Virus record (IMG/VR): IMGVR_UViG_3300040801_001865 | Location: 1 to 23,254 of that record | Length of the DNA stretch: 23,254 nt | Strand: one strand, 5' to 3' | DNA from: a virus | Shown here: positions 947-23,105 of the stretch, piece after piece | Layout of the letters: the number at the start of each line of letters is the position of its first letter | How positions within the stretch are numbered: the first letter of the stretch is position 1 | The notes under the pieces: model-generated | The model's database searches: none | What the model saw: only the letters and a program-made list of their open reading frames with translations | Told to the model about the DNA's origin: nothing | Translations under genes and position numbers: made by a program

Positions 947-3520
947 ATGACGGAAACAACAGGAAAACAACTTGGTGACGCAGTTGCATCCCTCATCGAA
1001 AATGAAAGTTTTCTGGACAACTACATCGAATCCGATGACCAAACGGATGTTACAACCCCGGATGGCACAATTATGCCGTCTTTCCAAAAGCGGAACGCGC
1101 AACTAATTGCAGACACCAACGCCCAAGTAAGCGCTGTTATTAGCAACCTTTCCCAGCGAGAAATAGACGTTATGGCCTACGGTGTCACTAATGACGGTGT
1201 CACGGATAACAGCGCCGCGCTTCAAAGTCTTTTCAATGACAGGGGCCCCGGGAACACTTATATTTTTCCACGAGGCACCTACTATCTCGGTAGCCGTGTA
1301 GCCAATATACCCGAGCGCACGACAATTCTGGGGGAGGGGCCAGAGGACACCATTTTCCGGCCTGCGTTTAGACAAAATGACTACCCCGGAACGCCGGGCG
1401 CATGGTGGGGCGTCTGCTTTGGGGGGTACCCCGATACAGGTAGCGACCCACGCATCCCAGGCGTAAGCATCCGGGGCGTCGGTATGCAGAGCCAGAGCGC
1501 ACCGCCTGAATGGCAAAGCGGCCAAGCCTACGTCGCTGGCCAGTACGTTGGCTTCAACCACATCGCCACAATCGGCGGCAAAACAGACAACACGGCGCGC
1601 GACTGGTATGTGCGCGTTGAAGTTAACCACACCTCAACAGACTTCGCCGCAGACCTGGCTGCCGGGCGGCTGGTGGTCGATGATACCTTCTGGAAAAACT
1701 CACTGCTTTGGGGGCGTTATTATGACGACTTCAGTGCGGAGGATATTCAGACGGACGCTCTGGGGATCAAACTTTGGGAGTCTGACAACACCCGTATGGA
1801 GCGCATCCGCAGGCGTCACTCTGGCGGTGTTGAGTACCAGACGGACGCGCACCTGGTCAGCTACGCTGGCGGCAGCAACCACGAGCTGGTGAATATCGAC
1901 AGCCAAGGCAACACTGAGGTCATTGACTTTGGCCGGGTCAATGGCGCATCAGCGCGTATTATTCGCGGAGCCCGCCAAACCACCATGGTGGAGACCGATG
2001 AAGCCATCGACACAGGCGGCAGTAACCGCGTGCTGGTTGAGGACTTTGAGCTAGATGGCTTTATTCGTGCTTTCAACATCAAGAAGGAATACGGCGGCGG
2101 CAATAACATCACCCTGCGCAACGGGACTATTGACTGTACCAGTCAATCAGGCTCCATTGCTGTGCTGGTCAATGGTGGGATGGACACCATTTTAGTCGAC
2201 AACGTTCAGGCTAAAAATGCGGCCAAGTCAATGCGCCTGACGGCCTCTGCTGGGGAGACGGTGGCAGGCGTCACCGTTCGAGACTGCAACTTCTCGGCAC
2301 CTAACTTGGCAGGCTCTATCGGCTTTGAAGTCTTTTCCACATCCAGCTCCACGCGTGGAGACCTTGAGGGTTTTACCATCGAGAACACCAATATTGACAC
2401 GGATGGGTTCTGCTACCGGGGGCTATTTGGGCGTGACTTTGTGGCCAATGGTGGGCGCTGGCGCAGCCGAAGTGCTGATGTTATCCTGCCGTCGGTGCGA
2501 TGGTCTGGACGCAGCGTGTATGATGCGCCTAAGTTCAGCAACTGGCACCTACGCGCGGATAATGGGTACATCATCAACACAGCGGATTATGAGCTATTCG
2601 GCACCCCTTGGAACGCCGTCAACTTTCACCTAAGCCTGATCGGGTGCGCACCTGATGAGCGCAGCGCCTACGGGCTCAATCTTGTTCGCCCATCGCTGTT
2701 TTTGTCCGTTCAAGGCGGGAATGGCTGGCGTGACTTGCCTCACAACTGGGCTGGCCCGTTCAACAAAAGTTTCACAGGCAGCTTTCTCCCGGTTTTCGAT
2801 GACCCCATCTGGTCGGACAAGGTGCTGACGGTGCTGGATCTCAGCCGTGATGCAACGTGGCCCACGCAGGCCGCCAGCGTTCCCGCCAGTGCCACACTGG
2901 TAGACACGTACGGCGGGCCTTCCGACTGGCGCACGGCAAGCAATGTTGGCACAGGCGTCACTTATGATGCTGCTAGTCGTTCTATCCAGCTTCGCAACAC
3001 GGGCACAACGCTCAAGGTTCTATTGGGAGCTGACACGGGCGCAGGCACGCTAGGGGCGGCATTGGGTGGTACGCAGACACCCTTTTGGGTGGCGCTTACT
3101 TTCCGGCTGCCTGGCACAGGTACAGCGGCAACAAGCACACTGGCGCGCCTCGGAGAGCTGGAGGTTCGCACCTTTGGCGCGACCACGCTCGGAATCCGGC
3201 ATGAAGCAGATGGGAACAGTATCACACCCAGCGGCTGGACGGCCAACGCATGGCAGCAGCTTTTTGCCTACGTTGAGCCCGAGTTGGGGCGCATCTACAT
3301 CTACCAAAACGGCGCTAATGTACCGGACGGCATCACGGGCGACCCCTATTCGGAACGGTCAGCATGGACGTGGGCAGCCACGGATGAGGCGCAGATCGTC
3401 GCAGGCTCAGGCATGACAGACATCGATATTGGCCGCCTGGTCGTGGGCAAGGGCACACTGCCAAACCCGTCGATCTACGCAACCAGAGAACACGCGCACA
3501 GTAACTCTATATGGAGCTAG
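947..3520 (+). CDS. Tail spike with pectate-lyase-type beta-helix
   Basis: A protein of 857 residues starting two bases after the previous stop. Residues 1-75 probably form the particle-binding head. Near residue 75 comes DVMAYGVTNDGVTDNSAALQ, the opening of the pectate lyase 3 (Pfam PF12708-type) beta-helix common in phage spikes, with FPRGTYYL and ILGEGPEDTIF strands after it. An insert near 180-240 (WQSGQAYVAGQYVGF, then NHTSTDF) resembles the small carbohydrate-binding modules found in tail fibres. Strand-rich repeats run to about 500, and the C-terminal 250 residues look like a lectin or LamG-type sandwich. Such spikes bind and often cut surface polysaccharide. From about position 1150 the codons shift to CTG, CGC and GGC, unlike the TTG/CTT and CGG/CGA of neighbouring genes, a sign of transfer. 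Catalytic residues cannot be picked out by eye. Confidence 0.85.
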   Translation: MTETTGKQLGDAVASLIENESFLDNYIESDDQTDVTTPDGTIMPSFQKRNAQLIADTNAQVSAVISNLSQREIDVMAYGVTNDGVTDNSAALQSLFNDRGPGNTYIFPRGTYYLGSRVANIPERTTILGEGPEDTIFRPAFRQNDYPGTPGAWWGVCFGGYPDTGSDPRIPGVSIRGVGMQSQSAPPEWQSGQAYVAGQYVGFNHIATIGGKTDNTARDWYVRVEVNHTSTDFAADLAAGRLVVDDTFWKNSLLWGRYYDDFSAEDIQTDALGIKLWESDNTRMERIRRRHSGGVEYQTDAHLVSYAGGSNHELVNIDSQGNTEVIDFGRVNGASARIIRGARQTTMVETDEAIDTGGSNRVLVEDFELDGFIRAFNIKKEYGGGNNITLRNGTIDCTSQSGSIAVLVNGGMDTILVDNVQAKNAAKSMRLTASAGETVAGVTVRDCNFSAPNLAGSIGFEVFSTSSSTRGDLEGFTIENTNIDTDGFCYRGLFGRDFVANGGRWRSRSADVILPSVRWSGRSVYDAPKFSNWHLRADNGYIINTADYELFGTPWNAVNFHLSLIGCAPDERSAYGLNLVRPSLFLSVQGGNGWRDLPHNWAGPFNKSFTGSFLPVFDDPIWSDKVLTVLDLSRDATWPTQAASVPASATLVDTYGGPSDWRTASNVGTGVTYDAASRSIQLRNTGTTLKVLLGADTGAGTLGAALGGTQTPFWVALTFRLPGTGTAATSTLARLGELEVRTFGATTLGIRHEADGNSITPSGWTANAWQQLFAYVEPELGRIYIYQNGANVPDGITGDPYSERSAWTWAATDEAQIVAGSGMTDIDIGRLVVGKGTLPNPSIYATREHAHSNSIWS

Positions 3521-8230: not shown

Positions 8231-8755
8231 ATGGCATTCACTGGTAACAAGCTTTTGGTTTCGGGAACCCCGGCAGCAAACGGGGCACGGCCAACAACTG
8301 AACTTTCCCCGCTTACTACGGTTGAAAATGCCGCTGGTTCTTTGCCGGGTGATAACGTCATTGGTGGGATCACGATCCCCGGTGACAACGTTATTGCGAG
8401 CATTTCAATTCCCGTCAATGGGGCCATTGCAGGAATCACCATTCCGGCGGACGGGACAATTGCCGGACTGACTTTTTCAGCGACACCAACCCAAGCGGAA
8501 GTTGAAGCCCTTCGGGATCAATGCGAAATTTTGCGGGATGGCGTTGCCAGCTTGTTGACTGAAAACGAATTGCTTCGGGATGGCGTTGCCAGCTTGTTGA
8601 CTCAAAGCGAAGTTTTGCGGGATGCCCTTGGTTCACTTCTCCCCGAAGATGAAAAGATTCGGGATTTTTTGGCGTCTGTTGAAAGCCGCCAACAAGAAAT
8701 CCGGGATCGGTTGAAAGTCACCGGCGGCGTTGGCATCATCAACGATCCGGCTTAA
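8231..8755 (+). CDS. Repeat-built tail-end protein (beta repeats, then coiled coil)
   Basis: A 174-residue protein, the last rightward gene. Residues 40-83 are four 11-residue repeats (GDNVIGGITIP, GDNVIASISIP, VNGAIAGITIP, ADGTIAGLTFS), likely a small beta-solenoid. After a linker, residues 101-156 are four 14-residue repeats beginning LRDG or IRD (LRDGVASLLTENEL, LRDGVASLLTQSEV, LRDALGSLLPEDEK, IRDFLASVESRQQE), each two heptads, which points to a coiled coil, probably trimeric. The end is glycine-rich (GGVGIINDPA). No family was recognised. Its place after TipJ and its fibrous make-up suggest a thin side fibre or tail-end connector. The stop codon is shared with the converging helicase gene through the sequence TTAA. 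Confidence 0.7.
   Translation: MAFTGNKLLVSGTPAANGARPTTELSPLTTVENAAGSLPGDNVIGGITIPGDNVIASISIPVNGAIAGITIPADGTIAGLTFSATPTQAEVEALRDQCEILRDGVASLLTENELLRDGVASLLTQSEVLRDALGSLLPEDEKIRDFLASVESRQQEIRDRLKVTGGVGIINDPA
8534..8602 (+). repeat. 42-base tandem repeat inside the tail-end gene
   Basis: A 27-base stretch starting CGGGATGGCGTTGCC occurs at 8534-8560 and again, without change, at 8576-8602, a period of 42 bases (14 codons). It encodes the first two LRDGVASLLT repeats. The perfect identity at DNA level, while the third and fourth protein repeats have drifted, suggests a recent duplication. Confidence 0.85.
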
Positions 8756-10548: not shown

Positions 10549-10687
10549 TTCCAACTTCCCACCCGTTGAGGTCACAAACCCGTGCGGCGTCTTGTTCAGT
10601 TGGGTATGAGCCAACGGGGGATGGAGAACCAGGGGGGTAAATAGTGAAGCCTTTTTCTGTTTCGACCACACATGCTTTCTCATTCAT
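10526..10687 (-). CDS. Small unknown protein, 53 residues
   Basis: A short gene whose ATG (10687) overlaps the TGA of the upstream 94-residue gene as ATGA, and which runs 23 bases into the nuclease gene. It reads MNEKACVVETEKGFTIYPPG, then SPSPVGSYPTEQDAARVCDL and NGWEVGNGQRSKT. The composition is that of a small folded domain: two strands (KACVVETEKGFTIY), a YPTEQDAARVC helix like those of small phage proteins that begin with a strand pair, and a tryptophan near the end. It competes with an N-terminal extension of the nuclease in another frame, which is rich in proline, leucine and lysine without any pattern. No function can be given. Confidence 0.6.
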   Translation of the reverse strand: MNEKACVVETEKGFTIYPPGSPSPVGSYPTEQDAARVCDLNGWEVGNGQRSKT

Positions 10688-10968
10688 AAGGCAGGGCGAA
10701 GTTTCAGGTTTTTGGTTGTGTTGATGACATCAATAATTTCAAGACGCTCTTGCTTTTGGAGTTTTACAATAAGCCGCTCGATAATTGATTCACGTGGTTG
10801 ATCCCTTTCACATTCAATCAAGATCATTTTCTTGATGTCATCAATGGACGGAACCCCTTGTTCACGGCAAAGGCGGTCAAGCTTATTCCATGAGTCAATA
10901 TAACCTGATTCAAGAATGCGATGGCGGTCTTTTTCAGTTACTTTTGGCATGTTTGGAAATGGTTTCAT
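10684..10968 (-). CDS. Unknown helical protein, 94 residues
   Basis: A mainly helical, charged protein with no membrane segment. The N-terminus reads MKPFPNMPKVTEKDRHRILE; an ATG at 10950 (MPKVTEKDRH) is a second possible start. The middle (SWNKLDRLCREQGVPSIDDI) looks like a helix-turn-helix or a small adaptor, and the C-terminal part (ESIIERLIVKLQKQERLEII) could form a coiled coil. Two back-to-back palindromes lie just upstream, so it may have its own control. The stop overlaps the start of the 53-residue gene. I do not recognise the family. Confidence 0.6.
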   Translation of the reverse strand: MKPFPNMPKVTEKDRHRILESGYIDSWNKLDRLCREQGVPSIDDIKKMILIECERDQPRESIIERLIVKLQKQERLEIIDVINTTKNLKLRPAL

Positions 10969-10979
10969 AAAAGCAAAGA

Positions 10980-11007
10980 AACAAAATTTTGTTAGGTTGT
11001 CAACCTA
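10980..11007. promoter_or_regulatory. Two adjacent palindromes before the 94-residue gene
   Basis: AACAAAATTTTGTT (10980-10993) is a perfect 14-base palindrome, and TAGGTTG-T-CAACCTA (10993-11007) is a perfect seven-base inverted repeat around one base; they share base 10993. On the minus strand the second contains TTGACA, a perfect -35 hexamer, though no good -10 follows at the right distance. The pair sits 12 bases before the ATG at 10968 and covers the stop of the methyltransferase remnant. An operator is the likeliest reading. Confidence 0.4.
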
Positions 11008-14528: not shown

Positions 14529-14536
14529 TTTCTTTT

Positions 14537-14546
14537 TACTGGTTTG
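14537..14546 (-). promoter_or_regulatory. AAACCAG leader motif before the DUF2815 gene
   Basis: On the minus strand, CAAACCAGTA lies nine bases before the ATG at 14528 and no Shine-Dalgarno sequence is visible. The same core occurs in the leaders of four other genes of the block and in the repeat array near 22.6-23.05 kb. Confidence 0.4.
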
Positions 14547-15904: not shown

Positions 15905-15912
15905 ATTCTGTT

Positions 15913-15922
15913 TACTGGTTTA
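15913..15922 (-). promoter_or_regulatory. AAACCAG leader motif before the DUF2800 gene
   Basis: TAAACCAGTA on the minus strand lies nine bases before the ATG at 15904, in a 29-base space between two genes. It is followed by AACAGAAT and the start codon. No Shine-Dalgarno sequence is visible. Confidence 0.4.
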
Positions 15923-16205: not shown

Positions 16206-16652
16206 TTAGCCTTGAAGATCGGCAAGGGTCTTGCCCGCTTCTTCTTCCAAACGCTTCAGCATGGCGGCTTTGTCACCGTCAAACTTCGTGATTGATTCGG
16301 TTTTGAATTCGGCCAAGACAGCTTGGAATTGCGGCTTTAATGATCCGCCTTCGGAATCGGGGCGCTTGATCATGTAAGTTGCAACCGTTCGGAGGTCTTC
16401 CGCCGTTACATCTTTGGCCAGGGTTTCGGCTTTTGGCGTTTCCTTCTTCGGGTTAGCCTTCGGCTTTTCGGTGGGTGGTTCGCTTACGGTCTTGGGTTCT
16501 TCGGCAGTGACTTCCGAACCATTAGCCGGTTCCTTTGTCTGCCCGCCTACAGGGGCGAACTGAAGCGGCAATTGAACGCCGCTGTTTGCAATTTCCTCAA
16601 GTGCATTTGCGATACGCTCAAGGTTTTGTTCTATGGTGTATTTGGTTTTCAT
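16206..16652 (-). CDS. Unknown protein with acidic linker and helical end domain
   Basis: A 148-residue protein in three parts. Residues 1-30 are a helix (YTIEQNLERIANALEEIANS) that could pair with a partner. Residues 35-80 form a low-complexity linker rich in proline, lysine, glutamate and threonine (EPKTVSEPPTEKPKANPKKE). The last 65 residues form a small helical domain (AEDLRTVATYMIKR, then FQAVLAEFKTESITKFDGDK and LKRLEEEAGKTL). A final domain of this pattern, in which FK(A/T)xSIxxL precedes another helix, is common in phage proteins near single-strand-binding genes. It has an exact 39-base leader repeat in common with the gene at 16681-17094. Function unknown. Confidence 0.6.
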   Translation of the reverse strand: MKTKYTIEQNLERIANALEEIANSGVQLPLQFAPVGGQTKEPANGSEVTAEEPKTVSEPPTEKPKANPKKETPKAETLAKDVTAEDLRTVATYMIKRPDSEGGSLKPQFQAVLAEFKTESITKFDGDKAAMLKRLEEEAGKTLADLQG

Positions 16653-16686
16653 TACTGTTTAGCTTGATTGCTGGTTTGAGTTAAAA
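16648..16686 (-). repeat. 39-base leader repeat, copy 1
   Basis: Identical over 39 bases to 17090-17128. On the minus strand it begins TTTTAACTCAAACCAGCAAT, continues with CAAGCTAAACAGTA and ends at the ATG of the gene starting at 16652. It contains the AAACCAG motif of other leaders and also the last codons of the preceding gene, which stops at 16681. It has no Shine-Dalgarno sequence. Confidence 0.9.
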
Positions 16687-17094
16687 AGTGATTTCTGAAG
16701 CTTCAGCAATTGCTTGCTTCCCGTTTTGGAACTCATTCAACCAAACCCGGTCAATGATTGCATTAAATTTGCGTTCCCATTGGATTTGTGCTTCTTTATT
16801 CAAAGCAACCGATTCATCATATTGCATTTTTGCAACTTTGAAAGAACTTGGCTGTTCAAAAACATCTTCAATGTCAATATCGTTGATGCTGCCCCAACGT
16901 TTTCCTGAACCGGTGATTTCTTTGGACATAACTTCTTGGACTTCAGCGATTGGTTTGAACTGAAGTTCGCCTTTCAAAACTGCCCGGCGGATATGCTCTT
17001 TTAAAGAAGGTGGTTTGCATTCGCAACTTGGCCCCTTTGAAGACATGATTTGGTTGATCCGATCAACCGTGTATTGTTTTTCTTGTTTGTTCAT
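16681..17094 (-). CDS. Unknown protein with N-terminal cysteine pair
   Basis: A 137-residue soluble protein. Near the N-terminus CECKPPSLKEHIRRAVLKGE has a Cys-x-Cys pair followed by a helix; the middle has acidic turns (INDIDIEDVFEQP) and the end a long helix (KEAQIQWERKFNAIIDRVWL). It begins directly after the second copy of the 39-base leader repeat, and its stop lies within the first copy. Similar length and composition occur in phage proteins of unknown function. I do not recognise it. Confidence 0.6.
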   Translation of the reverse strand: MNKQEKQYTVDRINQIMSSKGPSCECKPPSLKEHIRRAVLKGELQFKPIAEVQEVMSKEITGSGKRWGSINDIDIEDVFEQPSSFKVAKMQYDESVALNKEAQIQWERKFNAIIDRVWLNEFQNGKQAIAEASEITF

Positions 17095-17128
17095 TACTGT
17101 TTAGCTTGATTGCTGGTTTGAGTTAAAA
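17090..17128 (-). repeat. 39-base leader repeat, copy 2
   Basis: The second copy of the exact 39-base repeat also found at 16648-16686, ending at the ATG of the gene that starts at 17094. The two genes behind it do not resemble each other in protein sequence, so the identity concerns the leader alone and is not a trace of gene duplication. Confidence 0.9.
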
Positions 17129-17130
17129 GG

Positions 17131-17400
17131 TTAAAGCAAGTCTTCATCCGCCGGTTCGTTGGCGAGAATATGCTTGCGAGTATCGGACTTGAAAACACGG
17201 CCCGAACTGGCTTCGGCATGGACAAAATAAACATCCTCAAGGGATTCAATTTCATCTGGTTCCAAATGACTTTTTACAGTCATGTTTGAAACGCCTTTGC
17301 CCTTCTTGATGTTGATTTGCGAACCAACCGGAAACTTTTCCCGTGTGTCTTGGTAAGCTTCAACCAAAATGGTTCGGGCTTGTTCAATTTTGTCTTTCAT
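17131..17400 (-). CDS. Unknown small protein with acidic DEDLL end
   Basis: An 89-residue soluble protein. Residues 1-20 form a helix (DKIEQARTILVEAYQDTREK), and the remainder looks like a small beta barrel (VGSQINIKKGKGVSNMTVKS, then IESLEDVYFVHAEASSGRVF). The ending ILANEPADEDLL repeats the acidic tip with two final leucines seen in the DUF2815 and DUF2800 proteins. The start at 17400 lies 25 bases downstream of the structured RNA candidate at 17425-17499, so that element would be in its 5' leader. No family was recognised. A small OB-like or SH3-like fold is an inference. Confidence 0.6.
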   Translation of the reverse strand: MKDKIEQARTILVEAYQDTREKFPVGSQINIKKGKGVSNMTVKSHLEPDEIESLEDVYFVHAEASSGRVFKSDTRKHILANEPADEDLL

Positions 17401-17424
17401 AGCAAAATGGTTTTAAAGGTGGAA

Positions 17425-17499
17425 CCCTTGGAACTACCGGGACAGCTATTACCGGTCTATCCCGTCAAGCCGGGGGCCGTGCTTGAAGCGTTCCAAGGG
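17425..17499 (-). ncRNA. Candidate three-way-junction structured RNA
   Basis: A 75-base stretch in a 105-base gene-free space. Outer stem: CCCTTGGAAC (17425-17434) with GTTCCAAGGG (17490-17499), ten pairs. Inside, 17438-17445 pairs with 17457-17464 (eight pairs) and TCAAGC (17465-17470) pairs with GCTTGA (17481-17486). The inner stems touch each other, and three bases join each to the outer stem. In the eight-pair stem one position is a C-A mismatch if read from the plus strand but a G-U pair if read from the minus strand, which points to the minus strand, the strand of the genes around it. The apical loop carries ACCGGU, which is self-complementary and could pair two molecules. No known riboswitch, ribozyme or tRNA pattern fits. 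Confidence 0.5.
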
Positions 17500-17505
17500 C
17501 AAAGC

Positions 17506-17997
17506 TTATTCTTCAGAACCTTCCGCCGGAACATCCAGTTTACCACGGGTGCCGAAGTCGATTCGGAAACCGGTTTCAAGTTGAAGCATTTGGCGGATAC
17601 GGCGTTGAGATTCTTCCCGGCGTTTCCGTTCTTGTCCTTCGCTCATGCGGTCAAAGGCATCCTGAACAACTTCGTGAATGCGGGTTCGTTCTTGGCGGCA
17701 ATCACGGGCCGAAGTAGAAACCGCCCATTTGTATTGAAACGGGGCTTCCGGGTCAATTTGGGCCGTGTCGTGAACTTCGACAACTTGAGCAACCGAAAGG
17801 CCATCAGGTGTTTCAACGATAACATCTTGGCCGGGTTCAAGATCAAGCAAGGTCATGTAAGTATAAACCTTACCTTGTGACTTTTTCGGAATAGTCCCGT
17901 CCGGGCGTTGCTGAAGCGGGAAGTTGAATGAACACCCCACGGTTTTGACTTGCTCACAAAGGGCGGCAAGAATGAATGCTTGGTTAATCAGTTTCAT
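17506..17997 (-). CDS. Unknown protein with PriA-N-like small barrel
   Basis: A 163-residue protein. The ATG at 17997 is chosen; the frame runs on to 18030, into the neighbouring microprotein gene. Residues 40-75 read KVYTYMTLLDLEPGQDVIVE then TPDGLSVAQVVEVHD, a pattern (YTY, G-[QD]-x-V-x-V, VAxVVEV) like the small N-terminal DNA-binding barrel of PriA helicase and of related short phage proteins. The end is a charged helix (RKRREESQRRIRQMLQLETG) with an acidic final segment (DVPAEGSEE). It could bind 3' ends or forked DNA, but this rests on a short motif. Confidence 0.6.
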   Translation of the reverse strand: MKLINQAFILAALCEQVKTVGCSFNFPLQQRPDGTIPKKSQGKVYTYMTLLDLEPGQDVIVETPDGLSVAQVVEVHDTAQIDPEAPFQYKWAVSTSARDCRQERTRIHEVVQDAFDRMSEGQERKRREESQRRIRQMLQLETGFRIDFGTRGKLDVPAEGSEE

Positions 17998-18104: not shown

Positions 18105-18929
18105 TTAGGCGTTCGGCCCAACTTGGAATTGGTTGTTGAGGAAATCCCGGAAGGCTTCCCGAACGGATTTCGGAAATTCGGGGATCATTTCAAAAGCCGC
18201 CTTGTAATCTTCCGGGCTAATAGTTGGTTTTGCCTTGCCGGGCTTCTGACTTTTCTTGTCTTTGCCGTTTGCTTTCTTGGCCGTTTGCTTCTTGGTCACT
18301 TTGGTTTTGCCGCTTGCTTTAGCTTCGGCAATTTCAGACTTCAAACGATCCCTCAAAGCCTTTTCGTCACCCTTAGATTCCCGGTTCAGTTCGAGAAGAA
18401 GCGAAGACGAAATTTGACCGGCGAAGACCGCTTTCTTGCAGTCAACAGGCAAGGCATGGAGTTCGAGGCAATTCTTGATATGCTGAACCGCCATGCCTGT
18501 TTTTTCGGCAATCTTTTCTTCAGACCAACCGAAGTTCACAAGCCGCTTGAAACCTTCGCCTTGCTCAATCTGGTTCAACCGAACCCCATCGTTTGAAATG
18601 AAGACGTGAAGAACCCGTTCTTCTTCGGAAAGCTTAACGCCAATCACCGGCACGGTTGCAATTTCGTGCCCTTCTTCAATGGCTTGCATGGTCATACGCC
18701 AACGGCGTTCACCGTCCCGGATAAAATAACGTTCTTTGCCGTCACGTTTGACCGTTTCAACGGTAAGCGGTTTTTGAACCCCGTTGGCAAGGATGGATTG
18801 TTTCAACGCTTGGTTTTCATCGGATGCCGTGTTGATTTGGCGAAAGTTAAAACCTTTTTCCACTTCGAGAATCCGGGGATCAATCTTATGGGCGTCTTGC
18901 CGCCCTTGTGCTTGTTGCTTCAATGACAT
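18105..18929 (-). CDS. ParB-like DNA-binding protein
   Basis: A 274-residue protein. The ParB N-terminal domain is seen in QSILANGVQKPLTV (45-58) and the DGERRWRMT box (72-80); the segment LNQIEQGEGFKRLVNFGWSE (116-138) leads into a helix-turn-helix (EKIAEKTGMAVQHIKNCLEL). A lysine- and alanine-rich linker (about 205-240) joins a short C-terminal domain that contains FPKSVREAFRDFLNNQF. Proteins of this type bind specific DNA sites and may use CTP, as in ParB and Noc. In phages they act in segregation or as regulators. Here the repeats at 22.6-23.05 kb and the CTGGTTT leader motifs are possible binding sites, though no link is shown. The leader of the gene has a 16-base-pair hairpin and the AAACCAG motif. 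Confidence 0.82.
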   Translation of the reverse strand: MSLKQQAQGRQDAHKIDPRILEVEKGFNFRQINTASDENQALKQSILANGVQKPLTVETVKRDGKERYFIRDGERRWRMTMQAIEEGHEIATVPVIGVKLSEEERVLHVFISNDGVRLNQIEQGEGFKRLVNFGWSEEKIAEKTGMAVQHIKNCLELHALPVDCKKAVFAGQISSSLLLELNRESKGDEKALRDRLKSEIAEAKASGKTKVTKKQTAKKANGKDKKSQKPGKAKPTISPEDYKAAFEMIPEFPKSVREAFRDFLNNQFQVGPNA

Positions 18930-18942
18930 GGTAATTTCTGGT

Positions 18943-18952
18943 TACTGGTTTA
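18943..18952 (-). promoter_or_regulatory. AAACCAG leader motif before the ParB-like gene
   Basis: TAAACCAGTA on the minus strand, 13 bases before the ATG at 18929, next to the large inverted repeat at 18952-19007. A second, imperfect copy (AACCAG, at about 18939) lies closer to the start. Confidence 0.4.
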
Positions 18953-19007
18953 CTGTTTTCTTGTTGCTGCCCAAAGTCATTTTTGAGCATGGCAACAAGA
19001 AAACAGT
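18952..19007. promoter_or_regulatory. 16-base-pair inverted repeat, leader hairpin or terminator
   Basis: ACTGTTTTCTTGTTGC (18952-18967) and GCAACAAGAAAACAGT (18992-19007) are perfectly complementary, with a 24-base loop. On the plus strand the right arm is followed by TTTTT, the shape of a rho-independent terminator against rightward transcription. On the minus strand the hairpin stands in the leader of the ParB-like gene, with an A-run before it and the AAACCAG motif after it, where it could protect, process or pause the message. Either reading is possible. Confidence 0.5.
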
Positions 19008-19361: not shown

Positions 19362-19627
19362 GCCGGGTTCCTAGCTTGTTCAAAATCAGTTGTGAGAAAA
19401 TGCGGGGGCAATACACCTAAGCACGAAAGGTATATTGGCTTACCCGCAATCATGTTTTCGATGTCTTGAACGCTAGGTTGCCAAGCGGTTATTATCTGGT
19501 TGGCCCCATCAACAGAACCGGTTTTCACTTGCCCAACAAAAGCTTGGATTGAGTGAACTTGTTCTTCGGCATAACCTTCCGGCGGGCCAAATGTTGTGTT
19601 TGCTTCTTTGAATGTTGTTGGTGTCAT
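19358..19627 (-). CDS. Small unknown protein beside the primase
   Basis: An 89-residue protein; its ATG overlaps the primase stop as ATGA, so the two are probably coupled. Residues 20-75 (EEQVHSIQAFVGQVKTG, then IITAWQPSVQDIENMIAGKP and IYLSCLGVLPPHFLTTD) match a frequent small-phage-protein pattern: a tryptophan-proline motif (AWQPS), an EI-x-x-[ML]-x-[AG]-G helix turn, and a strand followed by a PP. The family has no known function to my knowledge. No membrane segment or zinc site is visible. Confidence 0.6.
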   Translation of the reverse strand: MTPTTFKEANTTFGPPEGYAEEQVHSIQAFVGQVKTGSVDGANQIITAWQPSVQDIENMIAGKPIYLSCLGVLPPHFLTTDFEQARNPA

Positions 19628-22239
19628 AATAAATCTTTTGCTTCTTCCAGTTGTTCAGCAACCCGGATGCGTTCCTTGAAGATTGCTTCAAAATCATCGT
19701 TATCAAAGGGGAAGAAATCAGCATTGCGGTTGACCCAAATTTGATGACGTTCGCCCATGATAGTTTGCCGCCCAACATAGTTGAAGTTCTTACTTGAAAG
19801 TAACTGGTTCAACGCCTTGGCCGAAACTGATTTTGGAAGTTCGGTGTTCAGCATGGCAAGCAATGACGAAGCCGAAAGAAGATCACCTTTAATCATTGGG
19901 TTGTCACCTTCGGCAATGATTTCATCAAACACCGTTTCCATTTCGGACTTTGTGACTTTGGCCATCTCTGCAAAGTAAGCAGTTTTTGGCGGGGGTGAGT
20001 TGGGGCAAAAGTCCGAACTGATTTCCCATTCTTCAAAGAATGCCCGAACTCCGCCAAATTCGCCCCCATCAACAAGGTCTTGCAGTGGTTGAAGCTTCTC
20101 AGATTGGTTCAATGCTTCAATGTCCTTGTCCGTCTGAAGGGGTGAGAAAACCACGAAATAACGCCGTTCCCGTTGTTCCAATGCCAGGGCGTCACGGTGG
20201 TTTGTGAACATCAAGTAATTTGTAAAGTTCTCAACTTCGCGGTTGTCCCGGAATCGTTGATTTACTGAAACGTGATCATCTGCAATTGGTTCCTTCAGCT
20301 TGTTCATTACGTCATGCCGTGAATGCCCGGTAAGCCGGATTTCATTCATGATTGTAAGTTGCGTTCCGTAAGCCCAATCGTTCCATTGGCTAAAGATTGC
20401 TTCCGGGTCAACGGTCTTGATATTGCCCCGGCCTAAGACGCCCCGAAGGGCTTTTGCGATCAACCCTTTGCCGTTGCCCTGTGCCGATTGGATCAGGAAC
20501 GCCCAACGGATTTTCCGCCCCGGATGCTGAACCATGAAGGCAATGAAATCAAGTAATTGTCTTTGGTATTCGGGTTCAGCGATTAACAAAGCAACATGGT
20601 TCTTCAGAATCTGCCCGTGTTCCTTGGCCAAGCCCGGCTTTGGGGTTGCGTAGCTTCGCCGGTAAGTGTTCGCAAACCGAACGCCGCCTTTTGTGCTGAT
20701 ATGGTCATCCGGGTTCAACGGGTCATAACAATCATCATACACGCAAGGAATTTGCAGTTCGTTCAAAACGAAATCTTGAGGTCGAATCGTTGGGGTGTTC
20801 TTGGCTTGGCGGGAAGTATCCCCCCGTTCTTCGAGCTCCCGCTCAGACGGCAAAAGCATTTTCGCATAAGTGGAATCGAACGATGATCGGGAAACCTGTT
20901 CACCGGTCTGGTAACGGTAAAACACTTCAAGCTTTGAAATGTATATCAACCCCTTGACCCAATCCGGCGTTCCCCGTTCGGCTTCTTCTTGCTTATACTG
21001 CCGATCCCGGATCAATGCCTTCAATGCCCGAAGGCGTTTGCCCATTTTGCTGATCGTGGCATTGAACCCAAGCTTCTTTGCCGCCTTCACAAGTTCGGCA
21101 ATCAAGGCTTCTTCGTAAACTGAAGTAAGCAATGGCGAAGCGGCTATTTTCTGCAAGCCCGGTTCAACCAGTTCACCAATCCGCCCTTGGGCGTGAATCC
21201 AACTCTTTAGGTATTGAAACCGATCTTCTTCTTTTTCGCTGGCATCCCAACCGGCATCTTTGGCCAACTTGAAAAGCGTTTTGATCGTGGTTGGAAGCCG
21301 CGTGAAAGTGTTCGGGCTTGTGTGTTCCCAACGGTAACGGGTCTTTTCCGTCCCTTCATAAGTTGCCCCGCCGGAACTCCAAGAATCATAAACCTGAAAG
21401 GCTTCATCATCTTGATCCGGGAATTGGTGACGCAAGGCCATTGCACAACGAATCCAATCGTGCATGGAACAATTCGGGGAGACATGGTTTAATGCTTCGG
21501 CGGCATCCCCTAGGGTGATCCCCTCAATGATGGGTTGAAGGAATTCAAGCCCTTCTAAAATGTTCCCTTCTTTCGCTTTGGTCTGCAAAGCTTTTGGTAA
21601 AAGGGTTGTTTGGCCTTGGAAGTGTTCCGGGGCAAGGGGTGACCCTTTAAGGTTGTGCAACAAGACCGGGTTTCCGTCACTGTCTGCAAAGACGGTTGGC
21701 CGGAACATGGCTTGGCTTGGGATTTGGGATTCCTTGTTGAGGGTTGGAAGCCCGATCTTTCCGGCGATAAAGTTTGATGCTTCGGCATATAAAGCGGGTT
21801 CAAATCCCGAAGCTTCCACAATGACACGAAGGCGGGGGGCTTCAGGTCTGTGGTTGAGAGTTGTATAAACAACGAAGTTGAAGCCATCCAGCATTTCCCA
21901 AAGCAATTTTGGGTTTTCAAAAATGGGTTGGGCTTCGGTTGCCGTGTCAATGTCGATGCATATAAGGGAAATTGATTCAACGTTTTCATTGTTCTTCGGG
22001 TATAGGTTCCCGGATTCGCATTCACGGAAAGCCCCCGGCGTGAAGTATCGAACCCATTTGGCAAGTTTCCGTTCATCCTTTCCAAGTGCCCGGTATTGAG
22101 TTTCAGTCAGTGCAAGCCGGACGGGTGCCCAAAGTTGGGTTTCAAAGAACCCTTGGAACGTTGAACATTGAAGGGGCGAAACAAACTTGAACTTACTTTT
22201 CGCGGATGGATCACCCCCAAAGAATTTAAGTTGTGACAT
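19624..22239 (-). CDS. Primase-helicase (PriCT-2, superfamily 3 helicase)
   Basis: The frame is 888 residues from an ATG at 22290, but the ATG at 22239 (871 residues) is chosen because it overlaps the previous gene by only 14 bases. In the chosen numbering, the primase part has the acidic ICIDIDTA motif (93-100) and LRVIVEAS (137-144). A PriCT-2-type domain lies at about 240-330 (DWIRCAMALRHQFPD, then FQVYDSWSSGG). The superfamily 3 helicase has Walker A in QSAQGNGKGLI (584-594), Walker B in LTIMNEIRL (628-636) and a sensor-like FTNHRDALAL (678-687). It makes primers and opens the phage origin. The end, EQLEEAKDLL, is acidic with two leucines, like three other proteins of the block. Confidence 0.92.
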   Translation of the reverse strand: MSQLKFFGGDPSAKSKFKFVSPLQCSTFQGFFETQLWAPVRLALTETQYRALGKDERKLAKWVRYFTPGAFRECESGNLYPKNNENVESISLICIDIDTATEAQPIFENPKLLWEMLDGFNFVVYTTLNHRPEAPRLRVIVEASGFEPALYAEASNFIAGKIGLPTLNKESQIPSQAMFRPTVFADSDGNPVLLHNLKGSPLAPEHFQGQTTLLPKALQTKAKEGNILEGLEFLQPIIEGITLGDAAEALNHVSPNCSMHDWIRCAMALRHQFPDQDDEAFQVYDSWSSGGATYEGTEKTRYRWEHTSPNTFTRLPTTIKTLFKLAKDAGWDASEKEEDRFQYLKSWIHAQGRIGELVEPGLQKIAASPLLTSVYEEALIAELVKAAKKLGFNATISKMGKRLRALKALIRDRQYKQEEAERGTPDWVKGLIYISKLEVFYRYQTGEQVSRSSFDSTYAKMLLPSERELEERGDTSRQAKNTPTIRPQDFVLNELQIPCVYDDCYDPLNPDDHISTKGGVRFANTYRRSYATPKPGLAKEHGQILKNHVALLIAEPEYQRQLLDFIAFMVQHPGRKIRWAFLIQSAQGNGKGLIAKALRGVLGRGNIKTVDPEAIFSQWNDWAYGTQLTIMNEIRLTGHSRHDVMNKLKEPIADDHVSVNQRFRDNREVENFTNYLMFTNHRDALALEQRERRYFVVFSPLQTDKDIEALNQSEKLQPLQDLVDGGEFGGVRAFFEEWEISSDFCPNSPPPKTAYFAEMAKVTKSEMETVFDEIIAEGDNPMIKGDLLSASSLLAMLNTELPKSVSAKALNQLLSSKNFNYVGRQTIMGERHQIWVNRNADFFPFDNDDFEAIFKERIRVAEQLEEAKDLL

Positions 22240-22555
22240 GCTCAGGAATGACGTGGAGGTTTGAAATTGAGACGTTGCTTGTGTCACCATTCAAATGAAT
22301 CACTTCGCCATTTGGGAACTTACCAGTTTGCACGGTGTAAGCAACTTCAGCAATGGGCAAAGGGTTGCCTTCAAAAGAAACGGTCGGCACTTTGGCCGAA
22401 TAACAACCGGCAAGCCTGTTTTTGCGCGCCCCCTGCCGTGATACCTTCCAAAGAAGTAAACCGCCGGACACTTCAAATGCTTCTTGCAAGTGGTGTGGTT
22501 CAAGGTATGTCAACGGGTCAAGCGATACCGCAAACTTATATTTCCCTAGCTTCAT
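22226..22555 (-). CDS. HNH-like nuclease, first leftward gene
   Basis: A 109-residue protein. The pattern LLLWKVSRQGARKNRLAGCY (33-52) then VAYTVQTGKFPNGEVIHLNG (71-90), DTSNVSISNLHVI (91-103) is that of phage HNH endonucleases of the HNH_3 or homing type (W-x-x-R near the start, then TG-x-[WF]-P, H-x-N-G-D and a final N-L). The expected first histidine, in the usual HRLAW, is missing: here AEVAY is found, so activity may be weak or lost. His 87, Asn 89 and Asn 100 are kept. The ATG at 22555 is chosen; the longer frame up to 22858 translates the repeat array. Its function here is unclear; a homing role or DNA processing is possible. Confidence 0.65.
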   Translation of the reverse strand: MKLGKYKFAVSLDPLTYLEPHHLQEAFEVSGGLLLWKVSRQGARKNRLAGCYSAKVPTVSFEGNPLPIAEVAYTVQTGKFPNGEVIHLNGDTSNVSISNLHVIPEHVTT

Positions 22556-22594: not shown

Positions 22595-22770
22595 TGCGTT
22601 TATTTGAAAATTTTGAAGAAAAATTTTGTGTCGCTGGCAAAAAGTTTCAGGTGTTTTGCTGGTTTGCTGGCGGGAGTTTTCTGCCAGCCAGCAAAAAACC
22701 CCCTTGCTGGCGGAAGTTTTTGCTGGCAGAGATTTGGGCTTTTTTAAGTGTATTTCTGTCCATTTGTTTG

Positions 22771-22928: not shown

Positions 22929-23105
22929 ACGATTTTTCCTGATTCTGCATTAAAGGTCCAGCAAAACACTGGTTTGCTGGTTGCGAGCTTTCAGGCTCAA
23001 AAACGGCGGCGAAAATTGGGCCTTTTTGCCAGCAAACCAGACAAACCCAGTGTTGAATTTGGTGCTTGCTTAATTCATTACTTGGCGCTTACATTTTTTG
23101 GCATC

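Follow-up and report, generated by a model that had tools for sequence, protein, structure and literature searches.

The stretch of virus DNA analysed here (the window, a 23,254-base record) has a minus-strand early/replication operon in its right half and, by reading, tail-type genes on the plus strand of its left half. Within the operon, gene 164 and an 89-residue gene are separated by a gap of 105 nt that holds an element of ~75 bases with a predicted three-branched RNA fold, running from 17499 to 17425 on the minus strand (Table 1). The other short spacers of the operon measure 29, 29, 28 and 36 nt. The element begins 6 nt past the stop of gene 164 (17506) and ends 24 nt ahead of the start of the 89-residue gene (17400), where the sequence-only reading had counted 25; excising it leaves an ordinary spacer of ~30 nt. 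The 89-residue gene is followed by small genes, a DUF2800 exonuclease, an Enc34-type ssDNA-binding protein, an HNH-nuclease-like gene and a family A DNA polymerase.

Table 1. Coordinates of the three-way-junction element, its surroundings and other features of the window.
Feature	Coordinates	Strand	Basis or remark
Whole three-way junction including closing G-U pair 17500/17424	17424..17500	-	RNA folding
P1 5' arm CCCUUGGAAC	17490..17499	-	sequence and fold
P1 3' arm GUUCCAAGGG	17425..17434	-	sequence and fold
P2 hairpin UCAAGC-A-CGG-CCC-CCG-GCUUGA	17465..17486	-	predicted fold
P3 hairpin CGGGAUAG / CUGUCCCG, 11-nt loop	17438..17464	-	predicted fold
Self-complementary ACCGGU in P3 loop, possible kissing loop	17451..17456	-	read from sequence
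Gap holding the element	17401-17505	-	between gene 164 and 89-aa gene
A/U-rich leader of 89-aa gene, no Shine-Dalgarno	17401..17423	-	sequence
89-aa gene, ends DEDLL	17131..17400	-	downstream of element
Gene 164, 163 aa, PHROG 13551, function unknown	17506..17997	-	upstream of element
ParB-like gene	18105-18929	-	upstream of gene 164
Primase	19624-22290	-	three small genes, then parB, downstream
Promoter-like TTGACA ... TTTCTTTG, Bacteroidota type, one mismatch	10974-11003	-	gap before ORF 10684-10968
AAACCAGYAA copies	14536-14545, 15912-15921, 16668-16677, 17110-17119, 18942-18951, 22656-22665	-	repeat
Paired 42-nt leaders	16648-16689, 17090-17131		two consecutive genes
Near-perfect 24-bp hairpin	18951-19007	-	-32.7 kcal/mol
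Long hairpin	22965-23055		-41.5 kcal/mol
Tandem coding repeats	8524-8649		in ORF 8231-8755
Stable coding site	1391-1465	+	-41.0 kcal/mol
Stable coding site	1500-1579	-	-43.1 kcal/mol

Gene 164 had been described as PriA-N-like, a likeness that we could uphold only weakly. Its structural model (mean pLDDT 64) contains a barrel resembling the PriA N-terminal domain and a long helix, PriA was the second match when the model was compared with the PDB (probability 0.92, E 0.55), and two of the viral matches carry the annotation of primosomal protein; there was no Pfam match. For the 89-residue gene, no convincing relative was found. We dropped the idea of read-through at the gene 164 stop, since the open frame of 18 codons beyond it is what chance predicts.

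Neither a promoter-like site nor, on either strand, an intrinsic terminator was found in the gap. The stem is followed by UUCCACC and lacks a U tract, so the element is not an intrinsic terminator, and with promoter and terminator both absent there is no obvious sign that it is transcribed separately. The genes of the phage mostly lack Shine-Dalgarno sequences, with SD-like sequences upstream of 4 of 25 ORFs by a rough count in which non-coding ORFs are included. Together with a promoter-like sequence of TTG-N19-TTTCTTTG spacing, this scarcity suggests that the phage probably infects Bacteroidota, in which initiation depends on A-rich leaders and on how the mRNA is structured around the start codon (PMC6847099).

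Several leader sequences and structures elsewhere in the window were observed in their own right. The motif AAACCAGYAA occurs in six copies, all in one orientation, compared with 0.23 expected (0 of 100 shuffles reached six). Five of the six stand 0–24 nt ahead of possible starts, namely those of the ssDNA-binding protein, the exonuclease, two unknown genes and parB; the 89-residue gene that follows the three-way junction has no copy. The motif recalls phage stoperators or a leader that substitutes for the Shine-Dalgarno sequence, was absent from the relatives checked, and may merit more attention. Two consecutive genes also share 42-nt leaders that are 98% identical, through either recent duplication or selection on the leader. 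A near-perfect hairpin lies directly upstream of parB, so that this hairpin and the three-way junction stand on either side of the parB-gene 164 unit. A longer hairpin, in the region ahead of the early operon, has arms that nearly copy the AAACCAGCAA motif in places (CAACCAGCAA at 22974-22983); judged by its sequence, it may be an operator or an origin. A coding region elsewhere contains three 42-nt tandem repeats that encode 14-residue repeats.

Folding of the minus strand at 17425-17499 reproduced the architecture proposed in the sequence-only reading, i.e., stems of 10, 8 and 6 pairs with 0, 3 and 3 joining bases. P1 comprises ten pairs, or eleven with the G-U between 17500 and 17424; P2 forms six (UCAAGC / GCUUGA) and three more beyond a bulged A; and the eight pairs of P3 include one U-G at 17459/17443. 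The junction strands are GCU (J1/2, three bases), none (J2/3) and GUA (J3/1, three bases). The minimum free energy was -38.8 kcal/mol, compared to a shuffle mean of -23.4 (z -4.57; none of 200 shuffles equalled it), and the local optimum with the eleventh P1 pair was -41.3 kcal/mol. The fold was unchanged within a 221-nt context. It had been claimed that the structure makes sense only on the minus strand, and this is too strong, since the plus strand folds too (-35.5, z -3.81); the preference for the minus strand consists of the one U-G pair and the direction of the genes. The P3 loop does contain the self-complementary word ACCGGU, previously put forward as a means of dimerisation, but a 6-nt word of this kind is expected by chance in ~9% of 11-nt loops (rough estimate). 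The palindrome alone is therefore at chance level and carries little weight.

We then asked how unusual such a fold is across the window. The -41.3 optimum ranks second on the whole minus strand, an energy of -41 was matched in 11 of 200 dinucleotide-shuffled whole strands, and two coding sites in the window are equally stable (Table 1). Stability by itself is thus only modestly unusual window-wide, and because stable sites also occur inside genes, energy alone proves nothing. Compact three-way junctions at or below -38 were rarer, with five seen across the 200 shuffled strands. When stability is combined with placement in a gene-free gap, the element is clearly unusual; the combined chance of such a fold in a gap was <1%, as roughly estimated from the shuffles and the share of the window taken up by gaps. 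It is placement rather than energy that lifts the element above chance, given that it fills the gap, has a foreign G+C content (61%, where the other gaps have 35–44% and the window as a whole 48%) and leaves a normal spacer on excision. A high GC content of intergenic regions is an established hallmark of structured RNAs (PMC8723152).

Searches for relatives of the element returned nothing above noise. The Rfam 15 covariance scan that the sequence-only reading had proposed gave no match in the window at the gathering cut-off and only noise up to E 10 (best E 7.2, with the fold not covered), bearing out the earlier impression that the element matches no known RNA class. DNA similarity searches of 50,697 phage and 72,556 plasmid records yielded only 23-nt chance matches. 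When IMG/VR was scanned for the pattern of the P1 arms, >100 stretches came up, roughly the number expected by chance; folded and covariance-scored, these did not have the inner stems in common. The two best-scoring stretches were rejected: L008 (E 0.14) adjoins a tRNA-like stretch and lacks P2, and L030 (E 2.1) lies in apparent coding sequence. A covariance model built on the single sequence placed only the window's own copy above noise among ~250 loci and found nothing in 13 whole records of the nearest relatives; this is weak evidence, because drift would conceal distant homologues from a model built on one sequence.

The genomic neighbourhood was compared in the same way. By alignment of the polymerase, the nearest relatives in IMG/VR (L124, L215 and L125) are 52–55% identical, with others near 40%; single-protein searches of IMG/VR with gene 164, gene 89, the exonuclease and the polymerase gave no matches, as the chosen peptides are probably poorly conserved. 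In relatives where the primase-to-exonuclease interval is readable, it spans 0.7–1.5 kb, and parB, gene 164, the 89-aa gene and a 137-aa gene were not found in it. This interval is a hypervariable accessory locus (L124, L127, L128, L130, L131, L133-L136, L140) that usually ends with a low-complexity gene before the exonuclease and in L127 holds a gene that reads as methyltransferase-like. None of the other intergenic structures of the relatives resembles the fold of the element. Relatives of gene 164 occur in Queuovirinae and other phages, and the sequence downstream of them holds mostly a plain hairpin or nothing comparable, with no similar three-way junction.

We tentatively propose, at a probability of about 0.42, that the element is a cis-acting structured intercistronic element of a polycistronic early mRNA, placed at the boundary between the parB-gene 164 unit and the 89-residue gene. 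We infer that it is transcribed, folds in the cell and acts on mRNA stability or translation. The three-way junction, closed by its helix of 10–11 bp, would act as a boundary in the mRNA: following cleavage downstream, 3'-to-5' exonucleases would be stopped by it, which would stabilise the message of parB and gene 164, or, alternatively, it could separate ribosomes finishing gene 164 from initiation at the 89-residue gene. One mark of an intercistronic mRNA element, strong structure lying between operon genes of the same direction, was found here in the form of a stable autonomous fold. The lack of any homologue, and hence of any sign of covariation or conservation, counts against this proposal, as does the frequency with which shuffled strands hold something equally stable. 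A cis-acting leader was among the roles first suggested and, broadened to a cis role within the operon, it is the most economical reading. One form of it did not gain support: the end of gene 164 is predicted to pair with the start region of the 89-aa gene in the 221-nt fold, but this pairing was no better than chance (z -1.3 to +0.8 compared to shuffled flanks, depending on flank length), so a specific translational-coupling switch that sequesters the start codon is not supported.

The features that make the placement unusual also suit an inserted inverted repeat, MITE-like or REP-like, whose fold would be a by-product of the DNA with no role for the phage. P1 would then represent terminal inverted repeats of 10–11 bp, the G+C content is foreign to the gap, precise excision restores a normal 30-nt spacer, and the site falls in the hypervariable primase-exonuclease segment, where gene content differs among relatives. 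We nevertheless consider an insertion rather unlikely, since the ends show no target-site duplication (no direct repeat of at least three bases) and there is no second copy in the window, the phage or plasmid records, or the relatives. A chance fold without function is likewise improbable: the 11 shuffled strands of equal local energy, the equally stable coding sites and the absence of conservation are what it predicts, whereas the rarity of compact junctions, the small share of the window occupied by gaps, the resulting expectation of <1% (rough estimate) and the local z of -4.57 are not.

Other roles would extend beyond the transcript in which the element lies. The compact autonomous fold and the neighbouring genes, one ParB-like and one (gene 164) predicted to encode a nucleic-acid-binding-like barrel protein, would accord with a small trans-acting or protein-binding RNA processed from the operon transcript, perhaps forming dimers by way of ACCGGU or acting as the binding site through which the gene 164 product or ParB regulates its own expression. 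We find this quite unlikely, given that the element has no promoter or terminator of its own, that no comparable three-way junction follows the gene in homologues of gene 164, and that the loop palindrome is at chance level. The earlier suggestions of a small regulatory RNA or a packaging RNA found no support, in view of the missing flanking promoter and terminator and the location in an early replication operon. Alternatively, the junction could act in single-stranded DNA as a site of primosome assembly or replication initiation for the PriA-N-like gene 164 product, a reading consistent with the stable DNA fold (-22.4 kcal/mol, z -3.98) and the replication genes around it. It is made very doubtful by the weakness of the PriA similarity (E 0.55), the lack of a clear GC-skew turn at this position, the U-G pair, which is disfavoured in DNA, and the simple hairpins or lack of anything comparable in other phages with gene 164. 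A new class of phage regulatory RNA, in which a dimerising junction bound by the PriA-N-like protein or ParB would couple replication-protein levels to early expression, seems to us highly unlikely.

If the intercistronic element is functional, it would join a small number of structured cis-elements described from phages that are SD-less and probably infect Bacteroidota, where initiation relies not on Shine-Dalgarno pairing but on A-rich leaders and the structure of the mRNA. At present it is a single orphan candidate, mainly a catalogue entry to compare with sister phages once these are sequenced.

Like the phi29 packaging RNA (pRNA; Rfam Bacteriophage_pRNA), the element is a three-way junction encoded by a phage and may make a loop-loop contact, but it is smaller, has no Rfam match and lies in a replication operon; a phi29-type pRNA was rejected in the absence of a match to the pRNA model, and the window showed no connection to a packaging motor of the phi29 type. 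Hammerhead ribozymes and riboswitches of the three-way-junction kind similarly arrange three helices round a small junction, but the element has no Rfam match at E 10 and its joining strands (GCU, none, GUA) lack their conserved cores. A hammerhead was rejected because the CUGANGA and GAAA core is absent from the element and Rfam gave no match. With REP and MITE palindromic elements it has in common short length, GC-rich inverted repeats and an intergenic position, but it is single-copy and has no target-site duplication. The stem-loops that stabilise or process intercistronic mRNA in bacterial and phage operons are usually simple hairpins, whereas the element is a three-way junction, known here from its predicted fold. 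It nonetheless resembles them as a strong structure between co-directional genes that lacks its own promoter or poly-U terminator, and by analogy it could set unequal mRNA levels upstream and downstream. The element is an orphan in sequence, but ordinary in kind.
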